Below are positions 55,057-58,736 of a stretch of DNA of 64,000 nucleotides, piece by piece. The notes beneath the pieces are model-generated. The model had not been told where the DNA came from and did no database searches. It worked only from the letters and a program-made list of their open reading frames with translations. The DNA comes from Sinisalibacter aestuarii (GTDB taxonomy: Bacteria; Pseudomonadota; Alphaproteobacteria; Rhodobacterales; Rhodobacteraceae), in contig NZ_BROH01000001.1 in NCBI RefSeq assembly GCF_027923545.1, positions 819,001 through 883,000 on the forward strand. Reading direction: 5' to 3'. A program made the position numbers and the translations under genes. How positions within the stretch are numbered: the stretch's first letter is position 1; the number at the start of each line of letters is the position of its first letter.

Positions 55057-55284
55057 ATGGATGTGAAGTTTAATGGTCTGCCCGACAGCGACGACCGGAT
55101 CGTCTATATCCGTGAGGTCGATGTGGCCGATCTGCCGGAAGAGGTGCGCCGTGAGGTTGGCGGGCTGAAGAAGCTCTATGCCGTGCATTCCGCCGAAGGC
55201 GAGCGGCTGGCGCTGGTGCGCGACCGGCACATGGCCTTCGTGCTCGCCCGGCAGAACGATCTCGCCCCGGTTGCGGTGCATTAG
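55057..55284 (+). CDS. DUF1150 family protein
   Basis: A 75-residue protein of the DUF1150 family, nearly always encoded beside hsp20 in this clade. It has the conserved VYIREVDVADLPEEVR segment and the LYAVHSAEGERLALVRDR centre. GGAGAG precedes the ATG. Function unknown; likely induced with the hsp20 gene on heat shock. Confidence 0.9.
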   Translation: MDVKFNGLPDSDDRIVYIREVDVADLPEEVRREVGGLKKLYAVHSAEGERLALVRDRHMAFVLARQNDLAPVAVH

Positions 55285-55310
55285 ATCTCCGGCCAGATCC
55301 CGAATTTCCG

Positions 55311-55450
55311 ATGAATAAGCGCGGCGGCGGCAGCAGCGTCACGCGGTCGGCCCCTTGTGCGAGCAGCGCCTCCACCACCTGAGGCACCTGCCCGAAACGT
55401 GGCGGGATCGTGGTAAGCGAGATGACGAGCAAGGTGGCCGCCGGCGGATC
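55311..55450 (-). pseudogene. Remnant of a glycosyltransferase-like gene
   Basis: The minus strand encodes TLLVISLTTIPPRFGQVP followed by VVEALLAQGADRVTLLPPPR. The string ISLTTIPPRF and the later LLAQ..V.L resemble the N-terminus of a family of small glycosyltransferase-like proteins. Beyond about 45 residues the similarity stops and no start codon or C-terminal continuation exists, so it is probably a decayed fragment. It lies next to the sulfate-activating gene, whose N-terminal domain resembles exopolysaccharide regulators. Confidence 0.4.
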
Positions 55451-55466
55451 GGAGCACGCGCCGGCC

Positions 55467-55499
55467 CCTTCATCCTTGCAAAAATACTCAAATCTCCCG
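55467..55499 (-). repeat. REP-like intergenic motif
   Basis: Read on the minus strand, GGGAGATTTGAGTATTTTTG followed by CAAGGATGAAG resembles a short element that I recall repeated between genes in many Rhodobacteraceae. A related tail is between dgcN and dgcA at 6524-6550. Confidence 0.4.
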
Positions 55500-55530
55500 C
55501 ATGCGCCAATCGGGCGCCGGGCCGGGCAGG

Positions 55531-55565
55531 GTGAAACGAAAAGGCCGGGGATCATCCCCGGCCTT
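55531..55565 (-). terminator. Terminator of the sulfate adenylyltransferase gene
   Basis: AAGGCCGGGG (55541-55550) and CCCCGGCCTT (55556-55565) form a perfect ten-pair stem with a five-base loop. On the minus strand TTCGTTTC follows. It lies 27 bp past the stop at 55592. Confidence 0.9.
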
Positions 55566-55591
55566 GTCGTTTTCGGCACTCGCAGAACATG

Positions 55592-57661
55592 TTACCCGGC
55601 GATCAGCCCCATGGATTCCAGTTTCAGGATCACCTGATGGGCGGCGTTGTCTACGTCCACCCCCTCGGTCTGAACCCGCAGCTCGGGGTTTTCCGGCGTC
55701 TCGTAGGGGTCGGAGATACCGGTGAATTCCTTGATCTTGCCTTCACGGGCCAGCTTGTAGAGGCCCTTGCGGTCGCGCCGCTCGCATTCCTCGATCGAGG
55801 TCGCCACGTGCACTTCGACGAAGGCGCCGTATTGCTCGATATCCTCGCGCACCGCGCGGCGCGTGGCCGTATAGGGCGCGATCGGGGCGCAGAGGGCGAT
55901 GCCGCCGTTCTTGGTGATCTCGCTGGCCACATAACCGATCCGGCGGATGTTCAGATCGCGGTGCTCTTTCGAGAAGCCCAGCTCGGACGACAGGTTCTTG
56001 CGCACGATATCGCCGTCGAGCAGCGTCACAGGGCGGCCGCCCATTTCCATCAGCTTGACCTGCAGCGCGTTGGCGATGGTCGATTTGCCCGAACCGGAGA
56101 AGCCGGTGAAGAACACGGTAAAGCCCTGTTTGGCGCGCGGCGGCCGCGTGCGGCGCAGCTCCTGCACCACTTCGGGGAAGGAGAACCATTCGGGGATTTC
56201 CAGCCCCTCCGCCAGACGGCGGCGCAGCTCGGTGCCCGAGATGTTGAGCACGGTCACGCCCTCTTCGATCTCGTCGGCGGGCTCGTATTGGGCACGCTCC
56301 TGCACATAGACCATGTGCTTGAAGTCGACCATTTCGACGCCGATTTCGCTCTCGTATTCGCGGAACAGATCCTGCGCCTCATAGGGGCCATAGAAGTCTT
56401 CGCCCGCCGAGTTCTTGCCGGGGCCGGCATGATCGCGCCCGACGATGAAATGCGTCACGCCGTGATTCTTGCGGATCAGCCCGTGCCAGACTGCTTCGCG
56501 CGGGCCGCCCATGCGCATCGCCAGCGGCAGCAGGCTCATCGTGGTGGTCGATTGCGGGTATTTGTCGAGCACCGCCTCATAGCAGCGCACGCGGGTGAAG
56601 TGATCCACGTCGCCCGGCTTGGTCATCCCGACCACCGGGTGGATCAGCAGGTTGGCCTGCGCCTCCTTGGCGGCGCGGAAGGTCAGCTCCTGGTGGGCGC
56701 GGTGCAGCGGGTTGCGGGTCTGAAAGGCGACAATCCGGCGCCAGCCGAGCTTGCGGAAATAGGCGCGCAGCTCGTTCGGCGTGTCGCGCCGGGCGCGGAA
56801 ATCGTAATGGGTGGGCGGCTGGATGCCCACGATCGGCCCGCCGAGATAGACCGGGCCGGCGGTGTTGTGCAGGTAGTTCACCGCCGGATGGGCGATGTCA
56901 TCGGCGCCAAACACCTTCTCGGCCTCGCGCGCCTTGTTCGGCACCCAGTTGTCGGTGACGGTCATGGTGGCGAGGATCACGCCTTCCTGGTCGCGCAGGG
57001 CGATATCCTGCCCCTCTTCGAGCTTGGCGGCGAAGTCTTCCGACACGTCGAGCGTGATCGGCATCGGCCAGAGGCTGCCATCGGCGAGGCGCATGTTTTC
57101 GACGACGCCGTCATAATCCTCTTCGGTCAGGAACCCTTTGAGCGGGTTGAACCCGCCGTTCATCAGCAGTTCGAGATCGTTGATCTGGCGCGGGGTCAGA
57201 TCCCAGCTCACGAGGTCGGCGGCTTCGACCTTCAGCTTCTGGGCGCTCTCGTAGGAGACGTAGAGTTCGGGAATGGGGGTGAGGTTACTCTGCACGATCT
57301 TGGTCCTATGCTTGAGGGGAACGAGTCCACTGGTGGTGCCGGTCAGTTCGGCGTGCAATGCGTCATATTCGGCGAATTTGCGGGCGAGGAACCGGTCGGT
57401 GAGGCGCACTTTTTCCGCCGCGCCGCGCGAGGTCAGCGCATAGGCGAAGCGGCTCCGCCGGTCGGGCCCGGCCCGGTCGCTGATCCTGACGAGTCCGGCA
57501 TCGGTCACCGCCCGAAGCTGGGCGTTGAGGCGACCGAGCGAAATGCCGAGCGCCTGCGCCGTCGCGCGCTGCGATGCGTCCGGCGCCTGTTCGAGCTGGC
57601 GCAGGAGGCGGAAGAGCAGGTCTTCCTCGGAGGGGTTTGGTGTGGTGGCGGTTGCGGGCAT
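55592..57661 (-). CDS. MarR-like winged-helix domain fused to sulfate adenylyltransferase/APS kinase
   Basis: A 689-codon open frame. Residues 12-108 form a winged helix typical of EPS-associated MarR-type regulators (TIGR04176-like): SQRATAQALGISLGRLNAQLR, RFAYALTSRGAAEKVRLT and FLARKFAEYDALHAEL. After about 14 linker residues, residues 127-490 are ATP sulfurylase (QTRNPLHRAHQ, GRDHAGPG) and 505-689 APS kinase (P-loop GFSGSGKST), together making PAPS from sulfate and ATP. The classical enzyme could start at the in-frame GTG at 57295 (codon 123), which has AGGA eight bases upstream and would give 567 residues, the usual family length. The ATG at 57661 has no clear Shine-Dalgarno sequence and lies 15 bp after a perfect dyad. 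A self-regulating fusion or two products are both possible. Confidence 0.9.
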   Translation of the reverse strand: MPATATTPNPSEEDLLFRLLRQLEQAPDASQRATAQALGISLGRLNAQLRAVTDAGLVRISDRAGPDRRSRFAYALTSRGAAEKVRLTDRFLARKFAEYDALHAELTGTTSGLVPLKHRTKIVQSNLTPIPELYVSYESAQKLKVEAADLVSWDLTPRQINDLELLMNGGFNPLKGFLTEEDYDGVVENMRLADGSLWPMPITLDVSEDFAAKLEEGQDIALRDQEGVILATMTVTDNWVPNKAREAEKVFGADDIAHPAVNYLHNTAGPVYLGGPIVGIQPPTHYDFRARRDTPNELRAYFRKLGWRRIVAFQTRNPLHRAHQELTFRAAKEAQANLLIHPVVGMTKPGDVDHFTRVRCYEAVLDKYPQSTTTMSLLPLAMRMGGPREAVWHGLIRKNHGVTHFIVGRDHAGPGKNSAGEDFYGPYEAQDLFREYESEIGVEMVDFKHMVYVQERAQYEPADEIEEGVTVLNISGTELRRRLAEGLEIPEWFSFPEVVQELRRTRPPRAKQGFTVFFTGFSGSGKSTIANALQVKLMEMGGRPVTLLDGDIVRKNLSSELGFSKEHRDLNIRRIGYVASEITKNGGIALCAPIAPYTATRRAVREDIEQYGAFVEVHVATSIEECERRDRKGLYKLAREGKIKEFTGISDPYETPENPELRVQTEGVDVDNAAHQVILKLESMGLIAG

Positions 57662-57676
57662 CGGTGGGTCAAAGTG

Positions 57677-57692
57677 TGTTCACGGGTGAACA
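57677..57692 (-). promoter_or_regulatory. Perfect 7-2-7 inverted repeat upstream of the MarR-SAT gene
   Basis: TGTTCAC-GG-GTGAACA lies 15 bp upstream of the ATG at 57661. If the message is leaderless or nearly so, the dyad covers the promoter, as expected for an operator of the winged-helix domain. The best candidate in the region for autoregulation. Confidence 0.75.
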
Positions 57693-58082
57693 TATCTCAG
57701 AAACGGAAGGACTTTGGAAGGAGGAAATCCGGAGAAATGCGTCCTGTTTCAAATTGTGACTCTCGTGCAACGCGGCAGGTGGAGCGGGCCGTCAAGCGGG
57801 ATACGGCGCATATGTGCTCCGAGCCCCGACCACACGGGAAAGCAACGTGCTCGGGCGCCGAATTGAAGTGGATTTGCGCAAGGTCAATGCCGGCGGCGCC
57901 CGATGTGGTAGATACTTTATTTCTGAGCGGTTCAAGCACCAGAGCGCGCCGCGCTTGCGGTGCCGGAAGCCGGTGCAGGCGATGGATCGACTCGACCGGC
58001 CTTGTTTGCCGTGCGCCGCAGCAAACTGGGTTCGTTTTTGTGCGTTCCGTCATAGAGAAGGCCAGTGGACGAATTTGTTCAT
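57693..58082. other. Intergenic region without a convincing gene
   Basis: Between the MarR-SAT dyad and the HEAT gene there is no recognised product. A frame at 57737-58102 has a purine-rich GGAAGGAGG upstream but encodes a Cys/Arg-rich sequence without any fold signs and overlaps the next gene. Composition is more mixed than in neighbouring genes, perhaps a decayed or acquired segment. Confidence 0.55.
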
Positions 58083-58736
58083 ATGAACAGCGGAAGAGAT
58101 AAACCCGACCTGATTGCCGCTCTGCGATCCAGCGAGGGATCTGTGCGCCTGAAGGCTGCGCTCATCGCTGGTGTCCATCCGGATTTGGATCTTCTTGACG
58201 AACTGCTGGATCGTTGCGCCGTTGAGCCTGACTTTCATGTCAGGGAGCAGCTCACTTGGAGTTTGCTCCGGTATCCGAAGGATATCGTTGTCCCGAGACT
58301 ATGTGCCGAAGTCTCATCCGCCAACGCGCAGGCCAGGTCGCAAGCCTTGCACACGCTGTCCAAAATCAAGGACAAGAACGCCTGGCCGGTGATCACCGCA
58401 CCTTTGCTGCGCGATCCCAACGATGAGGTCGCTAAAGCTGCGTGGCGTGCTGCGGTATCCATGGTCCCGCCGGGAAAAGAAAAGTCACTGGCGGAGGATT
58501 TGGGTTCACAGCTCGGCCGCGGCGGTCGAGATGTGCAGCTGAGCTTGAGCCGTGCCCTGATCGCGCTGGGCGAGGATGCGGCAGGCCCGATCCTTCGCAA
58601 GGCCGTGTCGAGCGATGACCACGACGTGCAACTACATGCGCGGGCCACTGAAAAGATACTCTACGATCGCAATGTCGATTTTCAGTATGCGATTGATCAG
58701 GTCAAAGTCGTGCTCGCGCCTCGCACCAGGGACTGA
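58083..58736 (+). CDS. HEAT-repeat protein
   Basis: A 217-residue helical-repeat protein. It has repeated units such as SVRLKAALIAGVHPDLDLL, LLDRCAVEPDFHVREQLTWSL, SSANAQARSQALHTLSKI and LLRDPNDEVAKAAWRAAV, typical of a HEAT family that I know mainly from actinobacteria, where relatives occur next to or fused with MerR-type regulators. GC and codon use look lower and more even than in neighbours, hinting at transfer. The start may also be GTG at 58065, which has AGAAG just upstream. A scaffold or binding role is likely; no partner is seen. Confidence 0.82.
   Translation: MNSGRDKPDLIAALRSSEGSVRLKAALIAGVHPDLDLLDELLDRCAVEPDFHVREQLTWSLLRYPKDIVVPRLCAEVSSANAQARSQALHTLSKIKDKNAWPVITAPLLRDPNDEVAKAAWRAAVSMVPPGKEKSLAEDLGSQLGRGGRDVQLSLSRALIALGEDAAGPILRKAVSSDDHDVQLHARATEKILYDRNVDFQYAIDQVKVVLAPRTRD

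Follow-up and report, generated by a model that had tools for sequence, protein, structure and literature searches.

A MarR-type winged helix fused to sulfate adenylyltransferase/APS kinase in Rhodobacteraceae is a likely regulator of its own gene

The fused gene and its domains

The window analysed here is a stretch of 64,000 nucleotides from the genome of Sinisalibacter aestuarii. On its minus strand, one open reading frame of 689 codons runs from an ATG at 57661 to a stop that ends at 55592, and it is stop-free up to codon 690. The gene is flanked by trxB on one side and by DUF1150-hsp20-purE-purK on the other. Directly downstream of the APS kinase, the minus-strand frame 55070-55579 has the appearance of a broken glycosyltransferase-like gene. 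It has matches downstream of only two fused relatives, L001 (the window itself) and L005. The predicted long product has the following parts.

55592..57661 (minus strand): whole frame, predicted long product of 689 aa with winged helix, ATP sulfurylase and APS kinase
57341..57634 (minus strand): winged-helix head, residues 10-107, placed by HTH_24, TIGR04176, structure model and MarR matches in the PDB
57275..57322 (minus strand): linker, residues 114-129, with pLDDT below 50 in the full-length model
56819..57274 (minus strand): PUA_2 domain of ATP sulfurylase, residues 130-281 (Pfam)
56150..56788 (minus strand): ATP-sulfurylase catalytic domain, residues 292-504 (Pfam)
55673..56128 (minus strand): APS kinase domain, residues 512-663 (Pfam)

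The first-pass annotation described an in-frame fusion, without a stop from codon 1 through APS kinase, of a MarR-type winged helix (residues 12-108) to a normal bifunctional sulfate-activating enzyme (residues 127-689). It also proposed profile scans of both parts. The single open frame and the scans bear this description out. The Pfam family HTH_24 matches residues 15-59 above its cut-off. TIGR04176 (MarR_EPS) matches residues 12-107 with 89.8 bits in the whole protein and 94.2 bits in the head alone, where the equivalog cut-off is 88, and it was matched by all 33 of the heads scanned. The model of the head (mean pLDDT 80.2) contains helices at residues 10-25, 31-38 and 42-54, a two-stranded wing (58-62 and 72-76) and a long helix at 78-107. 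Its best fold matches in the PDB are MarR proteins, 12 of them at E <=0.001, with TM-scores of about 0.5. The full-length model is weaker (mean pLDDT 68.9), with low confidence at residues 114-129 and over some of the enzyme. Elsewhere the genome encodes another TIGR04176-like protein, which stands alone (L002, G000:C10:131711-132004). It is 47% identical to the head and by our own reading adjoins a broken-looking frame resembling a sugar-nucleotide pyrophosphorylase.

The enzyme part scores 1036.6 bits over residues 121-688 with the NCBIfam model NF004040 (bifunctional sulfate adenylyltransferase/adenylylsulfate kinase), far above the cut-off of 669. The ATP-sulfurylase motifs RNPLHRAH and GRDHAG and the Gly and Lys of the APS kinase P-loop are invariant across 40 aligned fusions (alignment A2, the window's protein plus 39 of 120 listed matches). 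Judged by family score and kept catalytic motifs, residues 121-688 are a complete bifunctional sulfate adenylyltransferase (SAT)/APS kinase, the same enzyme as the NF004040 proteins (relatives 2gks and 3cr8; fungal 1i2d and 1m8p). The closest solved relatives are fungal ATP sulfurylases and one bifunctional SAT/APS kinase. Unlike them, the window protein adds residues 1-125, to which none of the 36 matched PDB sequences aligns in its best stretch.

Conservation of the fusion, its internal start and its upstream palindrome

A search with residues 1-125 returned 743 matching proteins whose length is 0.55 times that of the query or more. Among the best 120 of these 743, the majority are full fusions of about 690 aa, and the names include Shimia, Roseovarius, Leisingera, Aliiroseovarius and Pelagimonas. 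The family was sampled with 198 genomes, each with its own genus code; 186 had a match, and 150 matches were listed. The fused form, with the match starting at or before query residue 11, makes up 36 of the 150 matches listed. The remaining 114 start later, nearly all at query residue 97-127. Most of these other listed matches lack the winged helix but are otherwise this same enzyme, in many cases encoded at the locus of the fused genes. One (L067) first seemed partly fused (query 63-687) but is counted as unfused, its upstream text not being winged-helix sequence. In a sample of the class (385 genomes), the matches listed include six single-chain SAT/APS kinases from outside the family, none with a head at its start. 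Within a single bacterial family, these genomes place the fusion in dozens of genera. One record titled Nocardioides marinus (L211) carries a Rhodobacteraceae-type fusion and is probably mislabelled or mixed.

None of the 37 fused genes has a stop between its domains, and the head is in frame with the enzyme in every one. In a separate scan of named genomes the best 80 of 340 relatives were used, and the junction is open at all 80 loci kept (79 by script, L162 by eye). Conserved full fusions and open junctions in relatives rule out a chance frame or a sequencing error. It had been foreseen that homologues with an interdomain stop would point to such an error here, and that an unconserved upstream frame would tell against the long protein. 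The relatives are open across the junction, the fusion found by the N-terminal search is conserved across genera, and the head frame is conserved. The head has a median dN/dS of 0.21 over 331 pairs and the enzyme one of 0.12, so both parts appear to be under purifying selection, the head less so (its dN/dS being about twice that of the enzyme). The alignment of heads (A1) comprises 33 of the 37.

The junction between the domains carries a second feature, which overlaps the coding sequence.

57304..57307 (minus strand): AGGA, internal Shine-Dalgarno sequence, its AGG being the codon of Arg119, marked by AGG conservation
57293..57295 (minus strand): internal start GTG at residue 123, from which the short product would begin, marked by start-codon conservation
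55592..57295 (minus strand): predicted short product of 567 aa, a plain ATP sulfurylase/APS kinase (NF004040 over 121-688; start context)

The internal GTG at 57295 had already been picked out from the letters of the window, and it proves to be part of a conserved junction start, 8 nt from the AGGA. The set of 37 fused genes and the named set overlap, and their 117 loci reduce to 107 distinct 5' sequences. All 107 have a start codon at the junction (87 ATG, 19 GTG, 1 TTG); the 37 fused genes have 34 ATG and 3 GTG, and the 80 named loci 62 ATG, 17 GTG and 1 TTG. Arg119 is invariant, and its codon is AGG in 106 of the 107 distinct sequences, whereas the 37 genes use AGG for 15 of their 1940 other Arg residues. 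A sequence like Shine-Dalgarno (SD) precedes 36 of the 37 junction starts. In the same genes it precedes only 133 of 2185 other ATG or GTG when all frames are counted, and 19 of the 575 further ATG that are in frame. Among other conserved Met columns, one has such a sequence in 7 of 36 genes and the rest have none. Where the junction residue is Val the codon is always GTG, and GTG makes up 41% of Val codons. The unfused genes start at the very point of the fused genes' junction, with a clear SD in 13 of 75.

The fused gene has, in short, a conserved internal start with a ribosome-binding site, as is expected of a gene with two products. The conserved start codon and Shine-Dalgarno sequence argue for a short product, and because no fused gene has an interdomain stop, the long product seems to be kept too. 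Since the internal start is conserved alongside the upstream frame, two products are likelier than one, and the gene likely makes both a long and a short protein, each of them predicted from sequence.

A palindrome lies just upstream of the first codon.

57675..57694 (minus strand): 20-bp near-palindrome, predicted operator, marked by conservation with fused genes
57678-57691 (minus strand): palindrome core GTTCACCCGTGAAC, matching GTTCAN4TGAAC

The core GTTCAN4TGAAC occurs exactly upstream of 35 of the 37 fused genes. In the 36th (L018) it differs by one base, and the site of the 37th (L019) is cut by the end of its contig, which leaves one half to be seen. None of the 77 unfused loci has the core within 300 nt upstream, the best candidate having two mismatches; a looser GTTC-N6-GAAC is found in three of them, 145-272 nt upstream. 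The unfused loci come from 75 genomes; L104 and L111 duplicate L033 and L034 and were omitted from trees. The association of palindrome and head holds in all 8 of the independent contrasts that lie on well-supported branches (p 0.0078; L019 is left out of this test because of its contig end). The core is also present at all 80 named loci (79 by script, L162 by inspection). The first base of the proximal core lies 9-44 nt ahead of the position of the window's first codon. In the aligned consensus the near-palindrome covers 20 bp, and a CTTT some 28 nt upstream of the core is conserved as well. Two palindromes are present at each of eight fused genes (L010, L013, L018, L023, L063, L015, L029 and L062), spaced 32 bp apart in four of them and 34, 47, 49 and 49 bp in the other four. 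A spacing of 32 bp, roughly three turns of the helix, might allow two dimers to sit next to each other on the DNA. Within the window alone the core is unremarkable (2 occurrences with up to one mismatch, 0.92 expected), so the case for the palindrome rests on its conservation.

The site appears to be private to the fused gene. Of 32 fused genomes 29 contain the 20-bp pattern, with 30 sites in total, every one of them at the fused gene; in three fused genomes the site departs from the pattern. One of 20 unfused genomes has a match, at a different place. The 14-bp core has 70 sites in 20 fused genomes (19 of them at the fused gene) versus 65 in 20 unfused genomes, and thus is not commoner elsewhere in the fused genomes. 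Stretches of 8.5 kb around cysH in 13 fused genomes contain no site: the best weight-matrix score is 3.5, compared with at least 19.7 for 36 true sites and chance scores of up to 13.0 in unfused loci. On these two results a wider sulfur regulon was rejected. The cysH search covered 14 fused genomes, and G070 was dropped for want of a match to the PAPS reductase family PF01507. G070 is 99% complete, and PAPS there may therefore serve another use. For R. capsulatus, one paper states that CysB is not annotated and names a strong match (PMC9552610).

Elsewhere in the window's genome the core matches twice more, before frames that we read as purU-like and FAD-monooxygenase-like; neither match has the 20-bp form. 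The second match (L143, G000:C11:129116-129129) is an exact GTTCAN4TGAAC just before its gene and is perhaps the site of another MarR-type regulator. No such palindrome lies upstream of L002. We found no match to a sigma-70-type promoter in 57600-57900 and none to an Rfam family at E 1 in 57200-58300; on the latter result a riboswitch was rejected.

Distribution of the head within the family

Fused and unfused genes often share their surroundings. With the flank only 1.5 kb for most fused loci, the upstream side has trxB or lrp at 26 of the 37 fused loci and at 60 of the 77 unfused ones, and the downstream side has DUF1150, hsp20, purE or purK at 18 and 49 of them, respectively. Eight of the fused loci and 14 of the unfused ones show none of these six genes nearby. 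In a quick tree built on the enzyme part, from 112 family rows and 5 rows from outside, fused and unfused rows are intermixed, with 24 changes between the two states, at least 8 of which are forced by well-supported branches. One clean gain of the head is rejected on this intermixing. For Roseobacter litoralis, one report lists a 64.39-kDa enzyme of the same name (PMC4103551), a mass that fits the unfused form.

We read this patchy spread as repeated loss of the head. Recombination that swaps the 5' part between lineages may be the alternative, and such an exchange is possible because the distances of head and enzyme correlate weakly (Mantel r 0.18, a value reached in 154 of 2000 permutations). 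A possible case of loss fits the pairing of palindrome and head. At one locus (L077, in G157) the head has decayed to remnants in two reading frames with a stop, the palindrome is absent, and the junction Shine-Dalgarno and ATG are retained. It possibly represents a recent head loss in progress; an assembly fault is possible there too, because the genome is fragmented and 80% complete.

Predicted regulation and its alternatives

An enzyme and a predicted DNA-binding fold are joined here in one chain, the arrangement of a trigger enzyme. PutA, BirA and NadR are trigger enzymes with a DNA-binding domain of their own. The first-pass annotation had placed the protein in this class, with substrate or product possibly gating transcription. 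The idea of a transcriptional regulator is supported, since the palindrome that accompanies the head makes autoregulation likely; the gating is the least certain step of the mechanism set out below. We consider, at a probability of roughly two in three, that the long protein represses its own gene through the upstream palindrome and that the internal start probably gives rise to the plain enzyme too. Private autoregulation fits because the palindrome goes with the head and its 20-bp form sits only at the fused gene. Repression is favoured because the palindrome lies just before the start codon.

The proposed mechanism is as follows. Two long chains would bind the palindrome, one winged helix per half-site, and would block transcription of their own gene. 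The short chain would provide much of the enzyme; by mixing with long chains it would leave fewer paired heads, and repression would weaken. Least certain is that the ligand state (ATP, sulfate, APS or PAPS) would alter DNA binding and the enzyme would thereby signal how busy it is. In its full form, which is less likely than not, the proposal is of a gene that meters itself: the long form would sense the APS/PAPS load and shut the promoter, the short form would dilute the heads, and the internal start would permit joint loss of head and operator. The patchy spread would then be explained, because with the internal start a lineage could drop head and operator and still make the enzyme.

Autoregulation could well be real and do nothing but keep the amount of enzyme steady, with no metabolite sensed. 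This is quite possible, for the site is private to the gene, the cysH stretches have none, and none of the computed results indicates a ligand. However, head and enzyme form one chain in all 37 fused genes, and plain autorepression needs no such tie. It is unlikely that the long protein instead activates its promoter, for example when sulfate activation is slow. The association of palindrome and head would hold for either sign, and the conserved CTTT and the second upstream site in eight genes would suit an activator, but the proximal core stands very close to the position of the window's first codon. A site just ahead of the start codon is the usual position of a repressor.

We think it distinctly unlikely that the long protein is the sole product, with the junction start a relic of two formerly separate genes. 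The unfused genes, mostly without a clear Shine-Dalgarno sequence, indicate that one is not essential at this start, which lends that idea some support. A relic would nevertheless not be expected to keep its start codon in all 107 sequences, AGG in 106 and GTG for every Val at such divergence. Least probable by far is an exopolysaccharide (EPS) regulator that happens to carry an enzyme, tied to sulfated polysaccharide, a link the first-pass annotation had offered. The head does exceed the cut-off of TIGR04176, a family named for regulators beside EPS loci. Yet the neighbours are trxB, DUF1150, hsp20, purE and purK, the 20-bp site is at the fused gene only in 29 fused genomes, and the window's genome has a separate TIGR04176-like relative. 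Exopolysaccharide regulation is rejected on the gene neighbours and the private site, and the link is not supported.

The predicted autorepressor shares with PutA, BirA and NadR the design of one chain that unites a metabolic enzyme with a DNA-binding domain, here predicted to control its own gene. It differs in that the enzyme makes PAPS, the head is of MarR type, an internal start is conserved and the predicted target is its own gene alone. TIGR04176 regulators are stand-alone proteins of about 105 residues, whereas this head is fused to an enzyme in all 37 fused genes, and unlike those regulators the fused gene is not beside EPS genes. According to PMC5101355, VirF of Shigella is likewise a regulator gene that gives a long and a shorter protein (the short form being predicted here). 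VirF differs in having no enzyme fusion and in its reported leaderless mRNA (PMC5101355). A fungal PAPS reductase described as a transcription factor (PMC4848566) is likewise a sulfur-assimilation enzyme with a transcriptional role, which here is predicted. That system differs as well: it is another enzyme in another kingdom and a moonlighting activator. The term 'sulfate adenylyl' is absent from the accessible text of PMC4239095, and 'sulfate assimilation' from that of PMC4344238. We found no description of the fusion in the literature searched, which was mainly open-access, and a conserved fusion of a MarR-type head to SAT/APS kinase is apparently undescribed.

Annotation as a plain SAT/APS kinase conceals the predicted regulator. 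Because predicted regulator, site and regulated enzyme lie in one gene, a single purified protein and a short piece of DNA are enough for a direct test of the proposal. Nature also supplies the comparisons, in relatives with and without the fusion that often share the locus. If the proposal is true, an enzyme of primary metabolism with a private autoregulating head and a conserved two-product design would join the known trigger enzymes.
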